Part shown: piece after piece, positions 2,979 to 26,712 of the stretch
Layout of the letters: each line of letters begins with the position of its first letter
Numbering within the stretch: the first letter of the stretch is position 1
IMG/VR virus record: IMGVR_UViG_3300025132_000227
Coordinates: 1 to 27,212 of that record
Length of the DNA: 27,212 nucleotides
Source: a virus
Reading direction: 5' to 3' (one strand)
Translations under genes and position numbers: made by a program
Notes under the pieces: model-generated
Seen by the model: only the letters and a program-made list of their open reading frames with translations
Told to the model about the DNA's origin: nothing
The model's database searches: none

Positions 2979-5900
2979 ATGGCAATAACAAAAATAGGTA
3001 CAAAATTAATTGCAGATTTAGCAGTTACAACCACAAAGTTAAGTTCAAGTATACCAAAAGTACAAACACTGATTGCGAGTTCCATAAAAAGAAATAAAAT
3101 TCAATCAGGATCTGTCCAGCCAGGACACATGGATCTTTCATTAACTGGCGCAGGGCAAAACCATGTCGATATCTTGGATGATGACATGTTTATATTTGGT
3201 GATAAAACCAAGTTTGATGCTAACAACAACCCTCAAGCGGGTACTCATGTTAGAACGTTTAAATTTTCAAGTTTAAAAACCGCTCTATCTCTTTCTAATG
3301 CGGCAAGAGGTGAAGTCGGCACAGTTCAGTTTAAAGCAACTTCAGCACCGTTTGGTTTTGATGGCGTAGCAAGTTTACTTTCAGATGGTACTAACTTGAC
3401 AATGTCTAACGGCGGCAAAGTTCATTTTTCCGCAGTCGGCGCATCTGGTTCTCACGGTTCGATATTTTCCGATGCTGTAAAATCCTTGACAATTGAAGGA
3501 GATACTCAAATAAATCTTCACTCAAGCGCTTCAGTACAAGGACACCAAGCACAAAGTGTTGTTTTAGAAACTGGATCTTTGAGACCAATCACGAGACCTG
3601 CAGTCGCTGTTCAACCAGGGACTTATAAATTTCAATTTACATCTGGATCTATCGGTAGAAATCGTATTGACTCTTCTGGAGGGTTGAAAACCTACGGACC
3701 TCTGTCAAACGGTAATGCGCAGATGATCTCTGTGTTGAGTACTGGATCTGGCGCAAGTCTTGGTAAGGAGTGGTACTTATTTTACCTTAACGAGGCGGCA
3801 TCTGCTTCACCACTTCCAGTGAGTGCGAGTTTGAACCTTCAATACAACGATGCTGGGTTGCCAAAGAGAAGGCACGACATTCCAGTAGAGGCACATAGTG
3901 GAATCACCGATTGGCGTGATGTTGTTGCGAATCTCCGTGCTGCAATGCACACAGAGTTAAACACTAACGCCGATCTTGCCACAGTTACTTTATCCACTGC
4001 AGCAAACATTAATGCTACTGCTTCGATCACAGTAACTTACAAAGCAGGCACAATGCAGGGAGGTATTGTCGTCGGTACTGGCGTTCAAGGTATTGGAACT
4101 GCAGGTTCTGCATTTGGTCGAGGCACTGCCATTCAAGGGCATGGGTCTCCATTTGCATCTACACCACCATCAACTCAACCAGCGCCAATTGAAGGACAGT
4201 TTACACAAACGAATCACGACAACAAGCGCGCTGGTGAACCAGATACGTCTGGTGGCGAAGTAATCGTTGTGAGTTCTGGTTCTGCCGCGATAGCAGCAGA
4301 TAGTGTATGGTTAGACCTTGGTGGATCATCGAATCAATTTAGAAACGTGAAAGCAACCGCTTTTTCGGGTTCGGGTACAGATTCGTCGAACGCTGAAACA
4401 TTTATTCACAGAATTTCAGTTTCAGGTGCCGCTGATAGTAAGATTACCGTTGCTAGAATTAGACTAGAGCAAGGTTCTAAAATCTTGTCTGCTTCTGCGG
4501 CGACATTCAATACTTTCGACGGCCACAACGCTGCTGGAGTAGCTGTAATGTCTTTTACTAATGTTAGAGACGCAGTGTCGGCACCTTTGGGCGCTTCTGA
4601 TAAACCAATGCTTACGGCATCACATGTTAACTCTGCTTACCATAAAATAACTGCTTCGGTAGGTTTTATCGACAGGTTATCTTTTGGACCTACATTAACA
4701 GCGTCAGCCTTTGGACAAAAGAAAGAAGGCAGTAATTTCCACGAACATGGTGGTATAGTGCTTAGTAGTTCCATGACTCAGGTCAAGGGAAACAGAGATG
4801 TTAGAATTGCTTCTGGAAATGCTATAAGTGCCAGTATTGGTGACATTTTTACACTTGTTGGACAGGGCGGAGGCACCTATGTTGCAACAATCGCAAGTAT
4901 TGCAGGGAATAAACTTCACTTCAATACAGTAAACGCTATTGGTGCTGCAACAGCGCCTTACACTTTAGCAAAGATTGAAAAGGTGTCAACACTACACAAG
5001 GTAGACGCAGACAAGGGAACTATTGATAGAATACATGTAAACAGTGTCGTTACTGGGTCGGGTTTATCTACTCCGAGGTTCTTGCGAACTGAAACGTCTG
5101 GTGTCTTCGGTCGTATAGTTTATGGCGACTATAGAGTGACTGGTGGATTGACCCCAGCAAACGGCATGGACGTGGAAGCGAAACTTCACAATGCAACTAC
5201 GAGAAACTTATCTGCATCAGTTGGTAAGTTCCAGCACATGAATGTTGGTGGACCTGTAATTGCAAGAAGATTTACTTCTAATAATACCACTACGGAGCAC
5301 TTTGAATCAGTTGCAGACCAAATTATTGTTGCTGTCAGTGCATCATCGACAACCGCAGATATTGTTGGAGCAGGATTGCAGATAGGTGGCACAGCAGGAT
5401 CAGGTTCGACAGGTATTGCTAGTATTCTATTGGGCGATATCAATCGAAATGAAGCAGGCAAGATCTTGAACTTTAATCTTGGATCGACCAGAGCGTTTTC
5501 AATCAGTGGATCGAACCCAGCACTGGTAAGACTAGGTGTAACGGGAACTTTGTCAGCGTCAATCGGCGTTTTCAACACTTTGGAGATGGCAACAGCGATG
5601 TCTTCTAGCATAGTCTCAGGTTCTAAGTTGGATTTCCAGATTCTATCTGCCTCTGCGGTCTCTGTTCACGAGATTAAGGGTAACCGCCTCAATGAACCTG
5701 CTGTTGGTGCAAGTGACCTGGTGATATCTGGTTCGACATTTACGTATCAGTCAGTCTCTGGTTCAGACTTGGCTGCACATACCTTAGATGTGAAGCGCGC
5801 CACTCGCATTGATACAATATCAGCGGCCGGTGTGACTTCGACCATGCAGTATCACTCCATAACTGGATCAACCCTTCAAGCAACATTGTTGACGGGTAAC

Positions 5901-7163
5901 AAAATAGGTAATGCTTCGCATGGAAATGCAACTGTAACTAGTTTATCCGCCTCTAAGGGACAGTTTGTGAACGTGAACGTGCGAACGGTGACGTCTAGTG
6001 CATCATCAATACAGTTCCATACAGCAGACACAGACAAGATGACAGTCAGTGAGATTGTATCTACTGATGTTATTAAGTCTCAACACTTAAATAACGATAT
6101 TGTTACCAACGCTAGTGATGCTCACGGTGGTATTGTTTTTGCTAACGGCAAGTTAAGCATAGGTTGGAAGAGAAGAATATTCAGTAGATCTTCTAAGAAG
6201 ATCACAAATAGATCTCAACCAACGCAGGGTACGGGATCACTGTACACGACGTGCTCTCTATTAGAAACCCAAGTTGTATCAGGGTCAGAGAGAGTCTTCT
6301 TTAACGGTCTGCAGTTGATACCTTCAGATAACAACCGTTTCGATGGAAAGGGAGACTACGCTATTGATCACAGCCATGGCGGCGGTTTGTCCCCAGGTGT
6401 CTACAAATTTCAATTTACATCTGGATCTATCGGTAGAAATCGTATTGACTCTTCTGGAGGACTGAAAACCTACGGACCTCTGTCAAATGGCAATGCGCAA
6501 ATGATCTCTGTGTTGAGTACGGGTTCAGGAGCAAGTCTTAATAAAGAGTGGTACTTGTTTTACCTCAACGAGGCAGCATCCCCTTCACCACTTCCAGTGA
6601 GTGCAAGTTTGAACCTTCAGTACAACGATGCTGGATTACCAAAGAGAAGGCACGATATTCCAGTCGAAGCGCACAGCGGAATTACTGACTGGCGTGATGT
6701 TGTTGCAAATCTTCGCACTGCAATGAACACAGAACTGAACACTAACGCCGACCTTGCAACGGTTACTCTTAGTACTGCTGCAAATATCAACGCTACTGCT
6801 TCAATCACAGTAACCTACAAAGCAGGTACTATGGTAGGCGGCATTGTGGTTGGTACTGGCGTTCAAGGTATTGGACCTGCAGGTTCTGCATTTGGTCGAG
6901 GTACGTCCGTTCAAGGATTGGGGTCTCCATTTGCATCTACACCACCATCAACTCAACCAGCGCCAATTGAAGGACAGTTTCAGCAAGCGAATCACGACGT
7001 CAAGCGCGCTGGTGAACCAGATACGGGTGGCGGTGAAGTGATCGTTACAACTTCTGGTTCTATAACCAAGGCTGGAACAGGTATTTTCTTGAGTCCGAAC
7101 TTGGCAATGGATACAGATGATGTTCTAGTGGTACAGTACCTCTCGGGATCACATCAATTCTAA
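2979..7163 (+). CDS. Fibre-like virion protein 2 with duplicated insert (1394 aa)
   Basis: ATG 2979 follows an aaaaaagggag ribosome site. The N-terminus (KIGTKLIAD...TTKL) and C-terminus (IFSRSS... to AMDTDDVLVVQYLSG) match fibre-like protein 1, as do several internal blocks (FSGSG; the HFE...ADQIIVAVSAS segment; VTGTLSASIG; LNNDIV...FANGKLSIG). It is nearly twice as long because a 223-residue module occurs at residues 213-435 and again at 1139-1361, about 94 percent identical by eye. One copy sits where the paralogue reads SLKP-SSNGG-LDLG, the other between the GDY(A/T)I.HS strand and the final AMD.DD(V/I)LVV strands. The module has a helix (ITDWRDVVANLR) between beta-rich parts and a Pro-rich linker (STPPSTQPAP). 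It is probably a long tail fibre or appendage subunit. The insert's fold and role are unrecognised. The protein has no transmembrane segment or cysteine clusters. Confidence 0.7.
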   Translation: MAITKIGTKLIADLAVTTTKLSSSIPKVQTLIASSIKRNKIQSGSVQPGHMDLSLTGAGQNHVDILDDDMFIFGDKTKFDANNNPQAGTHVRTFKFSSLKTALSLSNAARGEVGTVQFKATSAPFGFDGVASLLSDGTNLTMSNGGKVHFSAVGASGSHGSIFSDAVKSLTIEGDTQINLHSSASVQGHQAQSVVLETGSLRPITRPAVAVQPGTYKFQFTSGSIGRNRIDSSGGLKTYGPLSNGNAQMISVLSTGSGASLGKEWYLFYLNEAASASPLPVSASLNLQYNDAGLPKRRHDIPVEAHSGITDWRDVVANLRAAMHTELNTNADLATVTLSTAANINATASITVTYKAGTMQGGIVVGTGVQGIGTAGSAFGRGTAIQGHGSPFASTPPSTQPAPIEGQFTQTNHDNKRAGEPDTSGGEVIVVSSGSAAIAADSVWLDLGGSSNQFRNVKATAFSGSGTDSSNAETFIHRISVSGAADSKITVARIRLEQGSKILSASAATFNTFDGHNAAGVAVMSFTNVRDAVSAPLGASDKPMLTASHVNSAYHKITASVGFIDRLSFGPTLTASAFGQKKEGSNFHEHGGIVLSSSMTQVKGNRDVRIASGNAISASIGDIFTLVGQGGGTYVATIASIAGNKLHFNTVNAIGAATAPYTLAKIEKVSTLHKVDADKGTIDRIHVNSVVTGSGLSTPRFLRTETSGVFGRIVYGDYRVTGGLTPANGMDVEAKLHNATTRNLSASVGKFQHMNVGGPVIARRFTSNNTTTEHFESVADQIIVAVSASSTTADIVGAGLQIGGTAGSGSTGIASILLGDINRNEAGKILNFNLGSTRAFSISGSNPALVRLGVTGTLSASIGVFNTLEMATAMSSSIVSGSKLDFQILSASAVSVHEIKGNRLNEPAVGASDLVISGSTFTYQSVSGSDLAAHTLDVKRATRIDTISAAGVTSTMQYHSITGSTLQATLLTGNKIGNASHGNATVTSLSASKGQFVNVNVRTVTSSASSIQFHTADTDKMTVSEIVSTDVIKSQHLNNDIVTNASDAHGGIVFANGKLSIGWKRRIFSRSSKKITNRSQPTQGTGSLYTTCSLLETQVVSGSERVFFNGLQLIPSDNNRFDGKGDYAIDHSHGGGLSPGVYKFQFTSGSIGRNRIDSSGGLKTYGPLSNGNAQMISVLSTGSGASLNKEWYLFYLNEAASPSPLPVSASLNLQYNDAGLPKRRHDIPVEAHSGITDWRDVVANLRTAMNTELNTNADLATVTLSTAANINATASITVTYKAGTMVGGIVVGTGVQGIGPAGSAFGRGTSVQGLGSPFASTPPSTQPAPIEGQFQQANHDVKRAGEPDTGGGEVIVTTSGSITKAGTGIFLSPNLAMDTDDVLVVQYLSGSHQF
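3615..4283 (+). repeat. 669-bp in-gene duplication, copy A
   Basis: Matches 6393-7061 in phase at a constant offset of 2778 bases with no net indel. Two stretches are identical between copies: 3627-3682 (56 bases) and 4143-4202 (60 bases). The DNA between them carries many, mostly synonymous, differences. It encodes residues 213-435 of the long fibre-like protein. Confidence 0.9.
6393..7061 (+). repeat. 669-bp in-gene duplication, copy B
   Basis: Second copy of the segment at 3615-4283, encoding residues 1139-1361. It lies inside the C-terminal domain shared with fibre-like protein 1, splitting two strands that are separated by only about 8 residues in that paralogue. Confidence 0.9.
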
Positions 7164-18861: not shown

Positions 18862-21522
18862 ATGAGTGCCACCGAGGACAGAATTGTTCAAAAAATTAAA
18901 GCGAACTTTAAAAAATATGCCGCTAACTTTAGTGATCAGTTGGTTTTAAATTTTCATATGGCGGATGTGGTTCCTCAAGCGTTTAACGGATCGCCCCGAC
19001 TTTATGAAGCAAGTTCTAAACTTGGTTTTGTAAAACAGTTAGGTAGAAAGGAAGGCAAAAAAAATGGAGATCCCTTACAAAATCCACCTTACTTTTTTTA
19101 CCCTTGCTACCCGCCCTCGGAATTAACAACACTTTTTTCTCCAAACAACAGCCCCGAGGTTTTCAACAGGTTTAACAACGCACAGGTTGCTTCTTTAACA
19201 CCTCTAATTGAACTATTTCTTTATAACCAACGAACGGCTAAATACTTTCCAATACCACTACAAAACATACACAATGAAATCAGCATCCTGTCTAACGTTA
19301 ATAGACTGTACGGATTCTTGGGTGTAAAGGAAATTGTTATAGACCTCAAGGGCGATAGTTTTGAAACGAGAAAGAAAGACATTGACATTGCAATAACTTA
19401 TTACGGAAATAATTTAAGTGTCTTTGATGTCAATGAAAAAGATTATCTACCGTTGATACATCCATTTTATCAAAACAAGGGATCAAGTTATGAACTCTAC
19501 CTAAGAACGGGATGGAACGACCCAACGCCCACCACCCAGGAACTACTTTTCTCGGGCAACGGCGACGCAGGAAAAGTTGCAGCTATCAAAGCGCAAAAAC
19601 TACTTTATAAACTACAGTACACAAAACATTCGTTTGCGTTTAATGAGGATGGGTCGTTCATCCTGGAGGTTAATTATGCATCGAGTATTGAAGAAAATCT
19701 TGAGGATATAAATTATGTGGAAAACACCTCTGCTGATATAAAAGAGATGTACCCCATAGTTGGAAACCCGCAACCTCTTCCCGTACAGCAGCAATCACAA
19801 ATTTCGGATTTTATTTCAGAAAATCACGCAGGTGCTTCCGATGCCGAAAAGGAAAGAATCTATAACTATTTTGCGCAAGACCCCAAGACTGTGTCGAAAA
19901 AGATAAAGGACAAGAGATCATCTACCGCCGATAGAAATAAAAAGTTTTTATACGACATGCTTTATGTTATAAGAAAAAACAAGTGTGCCTACACTTGCAT
20001 AGCAAAAAAATCTTACCTAAGAGCAGAAATGTTTAGAAGAGCGCTCAATACCGTAAGTTGGTCTGACCCTGCACCGAAACCTCAACAAACCCAGGGGTCC
20101 AACCAAAGTTCAGATTACATAGACAAAGAAAGACTCAGGATGGTGATGGCTCAAGAAACAGGGTTGATTAAACCACGGACAGTCACAAGAGATGGTGATG
20201 GAAACGTAACAGCGCAGTCTACAGAAAAGAAATACTATCAAGAAGATGCCATCATTAAAACTGTGAACCAGGAAACCGCAGAGTTAGATAGAACGTTCAG
20301 AGGCACGATACCTACGAATGGGAACGACTTAGAGTTGACTATCTCTAGGTACCCTAACTCGACTGATGGCAATGGAATCCCCGTTGAAGCTACTAACTAT
20401 ACTCGTGAAAACCACCTAGCAAATTTAGATCCAGGATATAAACTGCCTCATTTTATTCACGCCAACTCTGCGTATCCAAATCCTGTAGTGCACCATATTT
20501 TTGAATTTTATAGACTTGGCGACATACTTAACGCGTTCTTGGCAACATGTCCATCGACAAACACTTTAAGAGAAGTCGAAATAGTGCTCGGACCAATTAA
20601 TATAACACCAGATAGTCTTTGCGGTTATTACTTTAATTCTAATGCTGGAGACGTAAATAAAGACCCAGAAACTAATGGAATTACAGACCTCAGAGAGAAA
20701 ACAAACTTGGGTAATCCCAAAAGTGACACAAGGAAAAACCCTTTAGTAGCACTCAATGCTGCCGCATCCGATCTTAACAATTCCATATCACTTTATGATA
20801 TACCTATAAGTTACCAGATGTTACAGAGGGTAGTTGTAGAAACGTTTGCCAAGTCTACGATGAGCAGGTTAACGTATTTTGAATTTTTCAACGCTTTGAT
20901 GAATCTTGTAGTTAGACCTTTTTACTTACAAGGAGACCCTGTCTTAACAAATGTTAACCACAAGGGCGTTGTTAAAACTTATCAAAAAGTTCTTAGCACA
21001 AGTGCAAAATATGATGGTTTTTTCAGTATGAGTCACTTAAAAAAACAGTTTAATCCAATTAATTTAAAAGACCCTGGAGACACAAAAGCAATTCATATAA
21101 CAATGTGTGGTCCAGCGACAACAAGTACTAAACAAAAAATCGATACTTATAGGGTGGGATCTGCAGGTAGTTTAATTAAAAAGGTACAATTTCAGCAAAC
21201 GAACTTGGGAGTTCAAAGAGCCCGCAGTCAGGACAATGCAGCCGCAGCCTATAGAGACGGAAATTCAGAAATTGTTCCACAACTCTACAACGTGACAATG
21301 GATTTGGTTGGAAATTTAAATTTTTATCCAGGATACGTTTTTGATTTAAGACCAACAATTGTTGGCATGGGTGAAAAAAACCAAGATCAAATATTCAAAA
21401 CTTTAGGCATTCATGGTAGATATTTTACAACAGCGGTGGTACACAACATAGGATTGAGTGGATTTACAACTAAAATAACCAAAGCATACAATTTTGCAAA
21501 AGGAGACCCAGCAGGAACATGA
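18862..21522 (+). CDS. Large baseplate/virion structural protein (886 aa)
   Basis: ATG 18862, with a gcagaggag ribosome site inside the end of the gp53-like gene. No catalytic domain is evident. The first ~280 residues are mixed alpha/beta with Asn/Tyr/Phe-rich loops. A Gln/Ser-rich linker lies at about 305-320, and a charged helical region follows (325-390). From about 545 come FYRLGDILNAFL, VEIVLGPINI, ISLYDIPISYQMLQR (about 640-655) and a long helix with FFNALMNLVVRPF. The C-terminus (about 805-886) has NVTMDLVGNLNFYPGYVFDL and the ending GFTTKITKAYNF, resembling the beta domains of hub proteins that contact the tail tip. I recall similar large 'structural proteins' from marine phages. A baseplate hub or arm role is likely from position. 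Its stop overlaps the next start (ATGA). Confidence 0.55.
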   Translation: MSATEDRIVQKIKANFKKYAANFSDQLVLNFHMADVVPQAFNGSPRLYEASSKLGFVKQLGRKEGKKNGDPLQNPPYFFYPCYPPSELTTLFSPNNSPEVFNRFNNAQVASLTPLIELFLYNQRTAKYFPIPLQNIHNEISILSNVNRLYGFLGVKEIVIDLKGDSFETRKKDIDIAITYYGNNLSVFDVNEKDYLPLIHPFYQNKGSSYELYLRTGWNDPTPTTQELLFSGNGDAGKVAAIKAQKLLYKLQYTKHSFAFNEDGSFILEVNYASSIEENLEDINYVENTSADIKEMYPIVGNPQPLPVQQQSQISDFISENHAGASDAEKERIYNYFAQDPKTVSKKIKDKRSSTADRNKKFLYDMLYVIRKNKCAYTCIAKKSYLRAEMFRRALNTVSWSDPAPKPQQTQGSNQSSDYIDKERLRMVMAQETGLIKPRTVTRDGDGNVTAQSTEKKYYQEDAIIKTVNQETAELDRTFRGTIPTNGNDLELTISRYPNSTDGNGIPVEATNYTRENHLANLDPGYKLPHFIHANSAYPNPVVHHIFEFYRLGDILNAFLATCPSTNTLREVEIVLGPINITPDSLCGYYFNSNAGDVNKDPETNGITDLREKTNLGNPKSDTRKNPLVALNAAASDLNNSISLYDIPISYQMLQRVVVETFAKSTMSRLTYFEFFNALMNLVVRPFYLQGDPVLTNVNHKGVVKTYQKVLSTSAKYDGFFSMSHLKKQFNPINLKDPGDTKAIHITMCGPATTSTKQKIDTYRVGSAGSLIKKVQFQQTNLGVQRARSQDNAAAAYRDGNSEIVPQLYNVTMDLVGNLNFYPGYVFDLRPTIVGMGEKNQDQIFKTLGIHGRYFTTAVVHNIGLSGFTTKITKAYNFAKGDPAGT

Positions 21523-22718
21523 GTACTTATTTGTTTAACCAAAGACAATCTTACAATTTAAGAACTTCTGATACTCCTATTGCTAGTTTTGACAATTGGA
21601 ATTCGAAGCAATTTTTTTATGGTAAGTTTAACAAGTTTGATAGATCGATTGCACCGCTTGACAGGGCAGGTATCAAGACGACGTTCGAAAGTGATGCTGT
21701 CGCTTTAGACTTTGTTGTAGATGCTTTTAACGACATGAGTGATTTTTACGCATCTACAGTAAATCAACCGCTTAATGACGTAAGAATGCAACTTTTCGCA
21801 GGACAAAGAATTTTAAGAGCAGCTAGGGGATATATTAGACCTGTCGATCTGTACAAGGAAAGGTTAGAATCAATTAAAAGTGAGTTTCTTGAGAACTATG
21901 TTTTTAACACGGGTGTAAAAACATTTGAACACTTCTTAAGTAGATTTGATGAATTTGCAAGAGATTATGCGCCACACGTACCGATGCTCTACTCTTCGTT
22001 TGTAGGATCTTCAGGGTGCCCGATTCACTGTACAGGGTTGGTTCTTGAGACAAGGTTTGATCCGCACAACGACTTGCAGTCAAAAGAAGTTTTCCTCAAC
22101 AATCCTGATTTAGACTTTTATTATGAGATGGCTAAGAAGTTTGGATTTGTTGTTGCAAGGCATGCACCGTGGTGTTTTGTGGCGAACATACAGTCCAAAG
22201 AGATGCATGAGTATGCTAAATTTTACGATATCTCTAAAATTCAGGACATTCCAGATGAATATTATTACGAATGCAAGGACTTTGATATTGACTTGCTGAG
22301 AGAATTTTTGTATAATTGCTATAAAGAAATAGAAACAAGGGAATATGTCGAAACCGTGAAAAGAATTTGCCACAATAAAACCGTAGTAGAAAATGTGTTG
22401 CGAGAACCCATTAATTTACAACAAGAAATTTCTAACTTTGATAATTCAAGGTGGTTCCCCATATACATGAAGGTTCTGATTTATCAAAATCAATTAAAAA
22501 TTAGCAAAGTTACTGAAAAGTCCTTGTTGAAGGAGTTCTCTACTGTTTATAAAGATTTTGGATTTGAAATAGCATATAACTACGCAGAAGATAGATTATC
22601 GCAGTTTCCGACTGGGTTCACCAAGAATCCACAAGTGTCATCTGTATCACCATCCGTCCAAAACCAACAAGACATTGGCATGCCCGAAGGGAGTGGTGGT
22701 GTATTTTCAGGTTATTGA
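21519..22718 (+). CDS. Unrecognised 399-aa protein at end of tail run
   Basis: Starts in an ATGA overlap with the preceding stop, and an aaaggaga ribosome site lies about 11 bases upstream. The protein is soluble and mainly alpha/beta, rich in Phe/Tyr/Asn. A notable segment is FVGSSGCPIHCTGL (about 166-180) followed by LETRFDP. Another is KKFGFVVARHAPWCFVANI (about 206-224), a 'GF.(V)...APW..VA' pattern I associate with conserved hypothetical proteins of large marine phages. The last ~40 residues are Pro/Ser/Gln-rich and flexible. Six or more cysteines could suggest metal binding, but there is no clear zinc motif. The polymerase-like gene begins inside its last codons. Function is unknown; a virion or baseplate role is suggested only by its neighbours. 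Confidence 0.55.
   Translation: MSTYLFNQRQSYNLRTSDTPIASFDNWNSKQFFYGKFNKFDRSIAPLDRAGIKTTFESDAVALDFVVDAFNDMSDFYASTVNQPLNDVRMQLFAGQRILRAARGYIRPVDLYKERLESIKSEFLENYVFNTGVKTFEHFLSRFDEFARDYAPHVPMLYSSFVGSSGCPIHCTGLVLETRFDPHNDLQSKEVFLNNPDLDFYYEMAKKFGFVVARHAPWCFVANIQSKEMHEYAKFYDISKIQDIPDEYYYECKDFDIDLLREFLYNCYKEIETREYVETVKRICHNKTVVENVLREPINLQQEISNFDNSRWFPIYMKVLIYQNQLKISKVTEKSLLKEFSTVYKDFGFEIAYNYAEDRLSQFPTGFTKNPQVSSVSPSVQNQQDIGMPEGSGGVFSGY
22688..22693 (+). promoter_or_regulatory. Ribosome site deciding the polymerase start
   Basis: agggag at 22688-22693 is 5 bases before GTG 22699 and lies downstream of the alternative TTG 22675. It favours a GTG start 24 bases inside the longest open frame, giving a 371-residue protein. 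Confidence 0.5.
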
Positions 22719-23814
22719 TAGCAATCAAATATGTAAGAAAGTATTTATAGATAAAGATTTTGTAGATTTTTCTACAGAATTGAATTTATCTAGAACTTGG
22801 AAGCATTCTCTCCATCTTGAGGGTTTGTGTGATGTAGAGTACGCTTACTTGTATGGCGACGGCACTGTAGAATCTGTCTGTCCAAAGTACATGCTAGAGA
22901 GTTGGAACATTGCTCACACGAGAGTTGCGAATATTTTTAAGAGCGTCTTGCACGCTCAGTGTGACTTTGACAATTCTTGCATTTACGATTACGTGCCGTA
23001 TAATTTTTTAGTTAAATTTTTAAATGTCAAGCAAAGTGTAATCCAATATGCTTTTGAGGACATGAAGAGACCCGACCACTATGGTATTCTCAAAAAGGCG
23101 CACATCCTAACTGAAGAGATGAATTCAAACAAAAACTTATATGATGGAAAAAGGCAAAATACAAATTACAATATATTTGGAACAAAGACTGGTAGACTGT
23201 CAAACAGGAGAGCGTCAATACCTATTCTCACGATGAAGAGGGAAGACAGGCAGTTATTGAAACCTTCAAACGATCTTTTTGTGGAGTTTGACTTTAATGC
23301 TGCGGAACTAAGAACTCTCCTTGCTTTGTCTGGCAAGGAGCAGCCACAGATTGATATTCATAGTTGGACTATCGAGCAGGATGGGCAAAACTTGTCAAGA
23401 GAAGAAATGAAGAAGCGTGTCTTTGCTTGGTTATATAACCCTGTAGCGCGAGATTTGATGTTAGAGCGCCTTTACAATAGAGATTGGGTAAAGGGCAACT
23501 TTTGGGACGGAAACGCTGTTAGAACGCCCTTTATGCGTAAAATTGAAATAGACGATAGGCGCGCCTTAAATTACGTTGTGCAGAGCACGAGTAGTGACGT
23601 GTGCATCGAACAGGCATTTAAGTTAAGGCAGTTTTTTAAAAATAAAAGAACGAAAGTTTGTTATTTATTGCACGATTCTGTTATACTAGACTTTGCAAAA
23701 GAAGATCGACACTTGTTTCTTGAAGCGAGAAGAATATTTGCTAAAACTAGATTTGGTGAATACGTCGTTAATTCTTCTATCGGAAAGAATTTTGGCATGA
23801 TGAAGGCAGTGTAA
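22699..23814 (+). CDS. Compact family-A DNA polymerase-like protein
   Basis: Template-directed DNA synthesis domain of the Pol I type, without visible 3'-5' or 5'-3' exonuclease domains. Numbering from the longest frame (TTG 22675, 379 aa; subtract 8 for the preferred GTG 22699): TGRLS at 172-176; motif A DFNAAELR at 206-213 with the metal-binding Asp 206; DIHS 227-230; motif B (O helix) R242-x3-K246-x3-F250-x3-Y254, exactly the Pol I spacing; a NYVVQSTSSD segment (299-308) matching the N-P-x-QGT-AAD block; motif C HDS at 333-335. Oddities: the Gly after the O-helix Tyr is Asn, the second acidic residue of motif C is Ser as in T7-type RNA polymerases, and only 80 residues separate Y254 from D334 against about 116 in E. 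coli Pol I. It overlaps the tail-region gene upstream and, by one base, the tubulin-like gene downstream. Whether it is the replicase or an accessory enzyme is unknown. Confidence 0.85.
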   Translation: MYFQVIDSNQICKKVFIDKDFVDFSTELNLSRTWKHSLHLEGLCDVEYAYLYGDGTVESVCPKYMLESWNIAHTRVANIFKSVLHAQCDFDNSCIYDYVPYNFLVKFLNVKQSVIQYAFEDMKRPDHYGILKKAHILTEEMNSNKNLYDGKRQNTNYNIFGTKTGRLSNRRASIPILTMKREDRQLLKPSNDLFVEFDFNAAELRTLLALSGKEQPQIDIHSWTIEQDGQNLSREEMKKRVFAWLYNPVARDLMLERLYNRDWVKGNFWDGNAVRTPFMRKIEIDDRRALNYVVQSTSSDVCIEQAFKLRQFFKNKRTKVCYLLHDSVILDFAKEDRHLFLEARRIFAKTRFGEYVVNSSIGKNFGMMKAV

Positions 23815-24650
23815 TGTATACAGTAATTGGTTTCGGCGGAGTCGGCTGCCGCATCGCAAAATGTTTTGATCACTACTCGCAGTACAATATTATCTGTGTG
23901 GACAATAGTGAGTTAGACTGGAAAGATAAGTGGGTTATTAGAAAAGAGTCGACACCTGAAGATTATGAGAATAACTTTAAAGCAATACCAAAAAGAATAA
24001 AAGATAAAATAAAAGATGATGTAGTGTTTGTTCTAAGTGGATCTGGATCAGTTTCCTCTGCCGCCTTAAGGTTTCTGTATCAAATAAGGGACAAGAATGT
24101 ATCAATTTTATATGTGAGACCAGAATTGGACCTGCTAGACCAAAAACAAACCATGCAAGAAAGAATGGTGTTCTCTGTTCTACAAGAGTACACAAGGTCA
24201 GGAATTTTTCGAAATATTTACTTGACAAGCAATGCAGAAATAGATAGTCTTATAGAAAATGCGAGTATTAAAGACTACTATCCTACGATAAACAAACTGA
24301 TATCGACTGTGTTTCACATGGTTATGGTTTTTGACCATCAGATTGCAGAGGTTAGCAATTTTTCTGATATCAATGAATCAAGAAGGATTTGTACATTGGG
24401 AATTCTAGACATGCAAAACGAAACTGAGAGTATGTTGTTCCCAATTACGGACCCCATGGACACTAGACTGTATTATGGGATATCAAAAGCAAGCTTAACT
24501 GAGGATCAGAATTTGCAGAGAAACATTATTAAGTTGATCAAAGATAAAAATCAAGAACTGTGCAAGTACAGTTATGGCGTCTATGAGACGCAGTATGAAA
24601 CGGACTTTTGTTATGTAAAAACATATTCTTCAAAAGTTCAAGAATTTTAA
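23814..24650 (+). CDS. Divergent tubulin/FtsZ-fold protein (candidate)
   Basis: ATG 23814 shares its A with the polymerase TAA, so the two are probably translationally coupled. The order of motifs follows the nucleotide-binding half of FtsZ/tubulin: TVIGFGGVGCRIAKCF (3-18, T1-like), a strand ending VDN (29-31, where FtsZ has NTD), DDVVFVLSGSGSVSSAAL (68-85, the place of the GGGTGTG signature loop), then SILYVRPE (97-104) and a helix MVFSVLQEYTRSG leading to NIYLTSN (134-140), as in FtsZ's 'VVT.PF...L...IPN'. The signature loop is degenerate and I do not find a clear NxDxxD catalytic loop in the FSDINES region (183-189). At 278 residues it is shorter than FtsZ or PhuZ. It could therefore be a non-hydrolysing relative. 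An alternative is a GxGxxG NAD-binding Rossmann protein. It has no membrane segment. Confidence 0.45.
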   Translation: MYTVIGFGGVGCRIAKCFDHYSQYNIICVDNSELDWKDKWVIRKESTPEDYENNFKAIPKRIKDKIKDDVVFVLSGSGSVSSAALRFLYQIRDKNVSILYVRPELDLLDQKQTMQERMVFSVLQEYTRSGIFRNIYLTSNAEIDSLIENASIKDYYPTINKLISTVFHMVMVFDHQIAEVSNFSDINESRRICTLGILDMQNETESMLFPITDPMDTRLYYGISKASLTEDQNLQRNIIKLIKDKNQELCKYSYGVYETQYETDFCYVKTYSSKVQEF

Positions 24651-24679
24651 TTGACAAACAATAAAACATTTAGTATAGT
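24651..24679 (+). promoter_or_regulatory. Sigma70-type promoter for gp32-uvsX
   Basis: TTGACA (24651-24656), a 17-base spacer, then TATAGT (24674-24679): a consensus -35 and a near-consensus -10 at ideal spacing, beginning right after the TAA of the upstream gene. Transcription should start near 24686, giving a leader of about 73 bases. This is the only strong host-type promoter I see in the window, suggesting early expression by unmodified host RNA polymerase. Confidence 0.88.
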
Positions 24680-24758: not shown

Positions 24759-25517
24759 ATGGCACTGAATTTAGATCTTATGAAGCAAAAGATGGCTTCA
24801 TTAACAGGGAAGGGTGACGGCAAAAAGAATAATTTTTGGCGACCACAGGATGGTGAGAATAATATTCGCATTGTCCCAACAGCGGATGGGGATCCGTTTA
24901 AGGAGAAGTTTTTCCACTATGGTGTAGGGGAGCAATCTTTCCTATGCCCAAAGAGAAACTTTGGAGACAAGTGCCCAGTTTGCGATTTTGCAAACCAACT
25001 CTGGAATGAGGGTACCGAGGAAAGTAAGCAACTTGCAAAGGGCATGTTCGCAAAGCAGCGATTCTTTTCTCCTGTTCTTGTGAGAGGTGAGGAGTCCGAA
25101 GGGGTCAAGGTCTGGGGTTATGGTAAGTTAGCATACCAGAAACTTCTCGGCATTGTCCTTGATCCTGACTACGGAGACATTACCGACCCAGAGGATGGTA
25201 ATGACCTTAAGTTGATGTACGGCAAGCAACCAGGTGCTTCCTATCCAACCACCGATATTCGCCCTCGCCCTCGCAAGTCTGTCCTTTGTGACGATGCAGT
25301 AGGTGGCGACGAGCGCTGCACAGAGTTGTTGGAGAAGGTGCCCAACCTTGACAGTGTCTTTGAGAGGAGAACCACCGAAGAAGTTCAGGGGATTCTGGAT
25401 GCGCACTTGAGTGGCGACACGGAAAAAACTGAGATCACTCGTGGTGGTAACAGTGAAACTGAAGTCAAGTCTGAAGCAGATACTGTGTCTGCTGCATTCA
25501 ATGAACTTCTGGGTTGA
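24759..25517 (+). CDS. gp32: Single-stranded DNA-binding protein (gp32-like)
   Basis: Coats single-stranded DNA during replication and recombination. At 252 residues (T4: 301). The N-terminus has the basic, helical LMKQKMASLTGKGDGKKN segment involved in cooperative binding in gp32. FWRPQDGENNIRIVP (26-40) is typical of the core. The zinc site is complete: H53, C63, C72 and C75 (H-x9-C-x8-C-x2-C), close to T4's His64/Cys77/Cys87/Cys90. KVWGYGKLAYQKLLG and a strand-rich part follow, then an acidic/polar linker and the terminal AAFNELLG, the likely protein-docking tail. Start ATG 24759 has an ideal aaggagg site. It is preceded by its own promoter and a structured leader, and followed 11 bases later by uvsX, its recombination partner. 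Secure. Confidence 0.93.
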   Translation: MALNLDLMKQKMASLTGKGDGKKNNFWRPQDGENNIRIVPTADGDPFKEKFFHYGVGEQSFLCPKRNFGDKCPVCDFANQLWNEGTEESKQLAKGMFAKQRFFSPVLVRGEESEGVKVWGYGKLAYQKLLGIVLDPDYGDITDPEDGNDLKLMYGKQPGASYPTTDIRPRPRKSVLCDDAVGGDERCTELLEKVPNLDSVFERRTTEEVQGILDAHLSGDTEKTEITRGGNSETEVKSEADTVSAAFNELLG

Positions 25518-26668: not shown

Positions 26669-26684
26669 CATAGTGTTCAGTCGG

Positions 26685-26712
26685 CCCCCTGCGAAAGCAG
26701 GGGGTTTTTTTT
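26685..26712 (+). terminator. Strong intrinsic terminator after uvsX
   Basis: CCCCCTGC (26685-26692) pairs with GCAGGGGG (26697-26704) across a GAAA tetraloop, followed by eight T residues (26705-26712). A textbook terminator closing the gp32-uvsX unit. The next gene starts only 14 bases later and has no room for its own promoter, so it needs read-through. Confidence 0.93.

Follow-up and report, generated by a model that had tools for sequence, protein, structure and literature searches.

The window, by which we mean the whole 27,212-nucleotide stretch of viral DNA analysed here (IMG/VR record IMGVR_UViG_3300025132_000227), carries on its plus strand a gene of 278 codons plus stop (23814..24650, ATG start) whose product is assigned a tubulin/FtsZ fold by an AlphaFold2 model and by Foldseek and VIA matches. 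The gene lies between the polymerase part of a family-A DNA polymerase (22675..23814, +) and a gp32-type single-strand DNA-binding protein, its conserved downstream neighbour (24759..25517, +). The one-base overlap with the polymerase gene that was reported in an earlier note on this DNA is exact, base 23814 in GTGTAATG being common to the polymerase TAA and the ATG of the tubulin-like gene. The polymerase itself probably starts near 22702, since its relatives open with MYFQI and the corresponding residues in the window are YFQVI. Directly 3' of the tubulin-like gene and before gp32 stands a promoter-like TTGACA-17-TATAGT (24651..24679, +; a match to the consensus only), and the polymerase and tubulin-like genes may therefore together end one transcription unit. 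No long competing frame is found on the reverse strand of 23814-24650. The reading frame is not a product of chance, because Ka/Ks is low (0.05-0.10 in close-relative pairs with finite Ks, a range that indicates strong purifying selection), full-length homologues occur in many phage contigs and the same neighbours are kept.

Elsewhere the window encodes T4-type tail sheath, tail tube and baseplate proteins together with gp32, UvsX and a 5'-3' exonuclease, and a strong terminator-like hairpin of 10 pairs followed by a T run lies directly 3' of the UvsX gene (26683-26706, +). A tail-fibre-like reading frame of 1394 aa (2979-7163) contains a stretch of about 200 aa (GxYKFQFTSGSIGRNRIDSSGGLKTYG...) twice, nearly identical and about 3 kb apart, and the start of another frame (612-2897) is much like the start of this one.

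The order polymerase, tubulin-like gene, gp32 is kept well beyond the window. Among 176 loci, some of which are overlapping stretches of one contig, a family-A polymerase lies upstream in all 165 that have room for it, and gp32 lies downstream in 166 of the 169 with room; in the three exceptions the sequence ends before the gp32 site of near-identical relatives (1955 bases on). This synteny is not simply a consequence of how the loci were selected, because L001-L017 and L097-L172 were fetched by means of the tubulin-like protein and not the polymerase. The one-base overlap, in turn, is a feature of the window and its close relatives, while in distant relatives a small gene often stands between the two, and the gap amounts to 190 to 2333 bases in roughly one locus in three, so that tight translational coupling is not universal. 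As a constant upstream position, the coupling to a polymerase that the earlier note put forward holds throughout the family; we take the synteny with polymerase and gp32 as evidence of co-inheritance and not of contact. This small intervening gene, about 103 aa long (L038:9172-9483, and likewise in L040, L047, L048, L057 and others), has a YNKLVRDKIPEI motif and presumably resembles MazG/HisE-type pyrophosphohydrolases. In some close relatives a thymidine kinase lies between the tubulin-like gene and gp32 (L009:6850-7404, L011:6838-7392, L012:6795-7403), the L009 copy matching phrog_592 with an E of 1e-31.

Thirteen large records (G001-G013, 102-204 kb) give a view of the phages themselves. 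All 13 have the tubulin-like gene in single copy together with a T4-type gp23, 12 have a DnaB-type helicase, and a family-B polymerase was detected in none. The polymerase of the window and its relatives (A3) is short, about 370 aa, with the motifs DFNAAELR and LLHDSV, and this family-A polymerase part is the only replicative polymerase detected in these T4-type phages; the window copy has no match among cultured phages. Nor did the T4 sliding clamp family PF02916 match in these records, in a search with no positive control above the cut-off. Just upstream of the polymerase, at 21519-22718, is a fast-evolving reading frame of 399 aa, with identities of 23-37% where the tubulin-like protein has 30-75%. 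It gave no Pfam or PDB match and no fold, and a single weak match to a DNA-polymerase PHROG. If the polymerase is split, its missing exonuclease or N-terminal half may be encoded by this frame. Rhodothermus phage RM378 was compared on the assumption that it has a split family-A polymerase, and was rejected as a relative, its first 50 kb containing no homologue of the tubulin-like protein or of the polymerase.

The family is large. When IMG/VR was searched with the window protein by itself, 7 loci at 65-75% identity came up; a four-member profile gave 9, and a 65-member profile at least 598 confirmed relatives. From the loci we collected 131 distinct tubulin-like proteins, of which 114 are less than 85% identical to each other; these 114 homologues (alignment A5) are full-length and 27-75% identical to the window protein. 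Searches with the single 278-aa protein gave no usable match above noise in Pfam, PHROGs, NCBIfam, the PDB or the INPHARED phages, and a deeper member drew only three weak Bacillus phage matches from the cultured phages (E 0.3-6, 35% coverage). The family is absent from every curated family library tried. No relative was found in bacterial and archaeal genomes scanned with one family member, and a search from L096 for a divergent bridge to FtsZ-like proteins yielded nothing beyond near copies and relatives sharing 67% identity. No description of the family was found in the literature searched, mostly open-access journal papers. The phages that carry the gene, of T4 type and with a family-A DNA polymerase, are a widespread but uncultured group, in which the gene represents a separate family.

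That the protein belongs with the tubulins was proposed in the earlier note from short motifs, and the predicted structure bears this out. The AlphaFold2 model built from the 114 homologues has a mean pLDDT of 96 and a pTM of 0.92, and 266 of the 278 residues score 90 or higher; the same procedure with 9 close homologues gave a poor pLDDT of 52 and a model that we left unused, so it is the alignment that drives the prediction. The modelled elements follow the tubulin/FtsZ order across both domains: S1 (2-7), H1 (8-20), S2 (24-30), S3 (39-41), S4 (69-74) and H4 (79-90), then S5 (95-102), H5 (110-128), S6 (134-139), H6 (140-144) and the long core helix H7 (155-174), and finally a C-terminal domain of tubulin type (24387..24647, from the model and VIA) with S7 (192-199), a strand at 204-207, S8 (216-224), helices at 225-230 and 234-245, S9 (251-259) and S10 (265-272). 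Foldseek placed FtsZ or TubZ at every one of ranks 1-50 in the PDB (best E 3.5e-13), with TM-scores by query between 0.65 and 0.73. In VIA the model aligned with CetZ 3zid_B at Z 24.4 (257 residues, 2.9 A), with TubZ 4ei7_B at Z 23.2 (275 residues) and with Aquifex FtsZ 2r6r at Z 22.7 (268 residues), and all 711 chains compared reached a Z of at least 8, although that list was confined to Foldseek's own candidates and we do not count the missing of other folds there as evidence. The best three matches among viral predicted structures are annotated as FtsZ cell division GTPase, cell division protein and tubulin, at 12-14% identity, with no close relative among them.

Sequence profiles speak less clearly. 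The Pfam Tubulin profile matched 3 of 65 members, with a best E of 0.04 that falls below the PF00091 cut-off, and the gathering cut-off was reached in none of the 13 large records, while TrkA_N matched 29 of the 65 (best 6.8e-6), better than the Tubulin profile when single members are judged by sequence alone; ApbA and ThiF profiles also match family members. The earlier note had named two outcomes that would speak against its proposal, namely a predicted fold lacking the tubulin-type sheet and core helix, and a top hit in a dinucleotide-binding or ThiF-like family. The model has both domains and the long H7, its top PDB matches all belong to the tubulin superfamily, and the fold of the entire chain, C-terminal domain included, is that of a tubulin. 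Comparison of profiles with profiles by hhalign gave weak matches: a small FtsZ profile at E 0.023, in the right register over residues 3-182, and a PhuZ profile at E 0.0011 with a probability of 20% over residues 4-98 only; with single sequences of FtsZ or PhuZ in place of profiles, hhalign was uninformative. Because this support is weak, the homology to tubulins rests on the fold, and a full-length tubulin/FtsZ fold is, on the model, close to certain.

Mapped onto the gene through the hhalign register to FtsZ and the element positions in the model, the nucleotide pocket is a mixture of kept and lost parts (all coordinates on the plus strand). The GFGGVG loop seen in the earlier note is G6-F-G-G-V-G11, within a T1 loop G6-x-G8-x-x-G11-C12 (23829..23849) conserved in 99/100/99/94% of the 114 homologues, and its VDN is V29-D30-N31, with D30 (23901..23903) at the end of strand 2, the T2 position, in 96%. 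The succession of strand, RPE, helix, strand and N that it described is likewise present, as strand 95-102, R102-P103-E104, helix 110-128, strand 134-139 and N140; this asparagine (24231..24233), at the T6 position, is conserved in 96% and aligned by hhalign to E. coli FtsZ N165. At the start of H7 (24276..24335) two residues occupy guanine-binding positions, namely 156, where 106 of 114 homologues (93%) carry an aromatic residue or His, and N160 (97%), and hhalign pairs Y156 and N160 with F182 and N186 of E. coli FtsZ; we take these positions to correspond to tubulin Y224 and N228. G6, G8, G11, D30, N140 and N160 occur together in 106 of 114 homologues. Columns conserved at 90% or more are enriched in the pocket loops (12/47 vs 22/231, one-sided Fisher P 0.004), a result that is supportive only, the loops having been chosen by us from the fold.

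The losses lie on the phosphate and catalytic side. The D-VVF segment noted earlier at the place of the tubulin GGGTGTG is present as D69-VVFVLSGSGSVSSAAL85, and the T4 position, residues 76-83 (24039..24062), reads GSGSVSSA in the window copy. The exact SGSG string, whose conservation the earlier note had raised, is not kept among homologues, the family consensus after strand 4 being G-[SAG]-G-x-[IV]-S-[GSA], and the loop is altered and about 2 residues shorter than in FtsZ by the hhalign alignment. The T4 signature (GGGTG[ST]G), the T7 signature NxDxxD (searched as NxDxx[DE]) and the T3 glycine loop (GAG) were each found in 0 of 114 homologues and in 7 of 7 FtsZ controls. Residues 175-191 (24336..24386), by the model and motif count, are a shortened counterpart of FtsZ T7 and H8, 17-19 residues long across the family, with no NxDxxD and no predicted helix. 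In FtsZ the phosphates of the nucleotide are contacted by loops T1-T4 and its ribose by T5, and T6 takes part in binding guanine; the aspartates of T7 act as catalysts of hydrolysis in the adjacent subunit and form with H8 the longitudinal catalytic contact (PMC8936486). The combination of retained guanine-site residues with missing T3, T4 and T7 leads us to expect that base recognition is kept, phosphate handling changed and catalysis lost. From the alignment it is likely that the protein binds a guanine nucleotide, and we expect with good confidence little or no GTP hydrolysis, so that the earlier wording, diverged and possibly non-hydrolysing, fits a family in which these signatures are missing from all 114 homologues. 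Invariant residues are also found outside the pocket, at Q124, R128 and S129 (H5), H168 (H7), Y24 and L85, and are candidates for a family-specific interface.

Taken together, the fold, pocket and neighbourhood are best explained, with a probability we put at about 0.55, by a divergent tubulin/FtsZ relative that binds guanine nucleotide, hydrolyses it at best poorly, is produced along with the polymerase and serves at the site of replication. The nucleotide would be held by the T1 glycines, D30, N140, the aromatic at 156 and N160, and hydrolysis would be slow or nil because the loop that catalyses it in the neighbouring subunit is gone. Translational coupling would keep synthesis in step with that of the polymerase, and at the replisome or replication site the protein would serve as a subunit or as a scaffold, contacting polymerase or gp32; action through such a contact seems to us slightly better than an even bet. 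It would then work as a nucleotide-stabilised clamp, a switch or a static oligomer, and not as a treadmilling spindle of the PhuZ kind. Loss of the T7/H8 side of the longitudinal contact makes canonical dynamic filaments unlikely, while static filaments or capped oligomers are possible. We entertain more tentatively, at somewhat less than even odds, that in a large lineage of T4-type phages the tubulin fold has become an obligate, stoichiometric and non-cytoskeletal component of the replication machine that does not hydrolyse nucleotide, as a polymerase partner, a processivity or scaffold subunit, or a nucleotide-sensing switch.

The same fold could instead belong to a working cytoskeletal tubulin similar to PhuZ or TubZ, whose GTP-dependent filaments position replicating phage DNA in spite of unusual catalytic loops. 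TubZ is among the best structural matches, a DNA-positioning role is known for the phage tubulin PhuZ (PMC7950403), and the conserved surfaces outside the pocket (Q124/Y126/R128/S129 in H5 and H168 in H7) could be filament contacts. The T7 aspartates and H8 are nevertheless missing in 114/114 homologues, and filaments of a PhuZ T7 mutant form but are not dynamic (PMC7950403). The thaumarchaeal FtsZ Nmar_1262 of N. maritimus, which is reported to have AGKAGSA instead of GGGTGTG and no T7 loop, gave no filaments in yeast (PMC3684127). The 13 large records matched neither a PhuZ profile nor the phiKZ chimallin, in searches run with no positive control and for chimallins that diverge. We judge a cytoskeletal role of this kind unlikely, at something like one chance in five. 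A slightly smaller weight goes to a pocket that holds NAD, another dinucleotide or no ligand at all, in a protein that would serve the polymerase as a structural adaptor. GxGxxG together with an acidic residue closing strand 2 (D30) is an NAD-type motif, members match TrkA_N, ApbA and ThiF, and the T4 phosphate loop is altered and shortened; but the guanine-site positions 140, 156 and 160 are kept in more than 90% of members, and D30 is compatible with a tubulin, the GTP-dependent PhuZ also ending strand 2 in an invariant Asp.

Two further proposals seem to us very improbable. Were the protein a mimic of an FtsZ subunit that serves host takeover by poisoning or capping host FtsZ, with the polymerase nearby only through shared early expression, a top (nucleotide) face lacking the T7 bottom face could in principle cap filaments, as judged from the fold; its fixed place among replication genes, its single copy and a purifying selection unlike that on fast-changing host-interaction genes weigh against this. 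Least probable of all is an ordinary enzyme of the Rossmann dehydrogenase or ThiF-like kind, with a likeness to tubulin in its N-terminal half only. Profiles by sequence alone do favour Rossmann families, yet the alignment to tubulins, at Z >21, runs over the entire chain with its C-terminal domain and 20-residue H7, and the first 50 PDB matches contain no oxidoreductase; an NAD-binding enzyme was accordingly dropped as a candidate, the tubulin match covering the whole chain and not the N-terminal half alone.

To our knowledge, the known phage tubulins are the PhuZ spindles of nucleus-forming jumbo phages and the TubZ partition proteins. The family described here adds to these another large branch of the tubulin superfamily, one for which no description was found in the papers and protein-family libraries searched. 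It occurs in T4-type phages with no phage-nucleus gene detected (13 large records, no positive control), and its gene is as constant there as the polymerase itself. A relative of the tubulins of the cell skeleton may thus be part of a viral DNA-copying machinery, and a direct role of a tubulin in DNA replication becomes a testable idea. A natural tubulin with neither T7 loop nor T4 signature also offers a way to study the function of the fold in the probable absence of GTP hydrolysis.

Compared with the known systems, the protein is, by its predicted fold, a member of the tubulin superfamily, and by the three defining GTPase signatures not a standard one. With FtsZ and CetZ it shares the two-domain fold, the long H7, the T1 glycines, the T6 Asn and an aromatic-xxx-Asn/Asp at the start of H7, but at 278 aa and 10-17% identity it lacks their T3 glycine loop, GGGTGTG, T7 NxDxxD and H8. 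PhuZ of the phiKZ-like jumbo phages (Chimalliviridae) is likewise a phage-encoded tubulin fold with strand 2 ending in Asp, but the T4 glycine motif is recognisable in 6/8 PhuZ and the T7 D..D in 8/8, and in phiKZ PhuZ is gene 39, apart from the polymerase, gene 50. PhuZ is also missing from many chimallin phages (PMC13282480), whereas the tubulin-like gene is present in all 13 large records. TubZ has the same fold, the alignment to 4ei7_B spanning 275 residues, but acts with TubR and a centromere (PMC7950403), while the neighbours of the tubulin-like gene are replication genes, and in the loci read no TubR gene or tubC/tubS centromere partner was noticed next to it. Nmar_1262, by its published description, is similar in missing both the T4 and the T7 motif, and differs in being a cellular gene for which no connection with a polymerase is reported.
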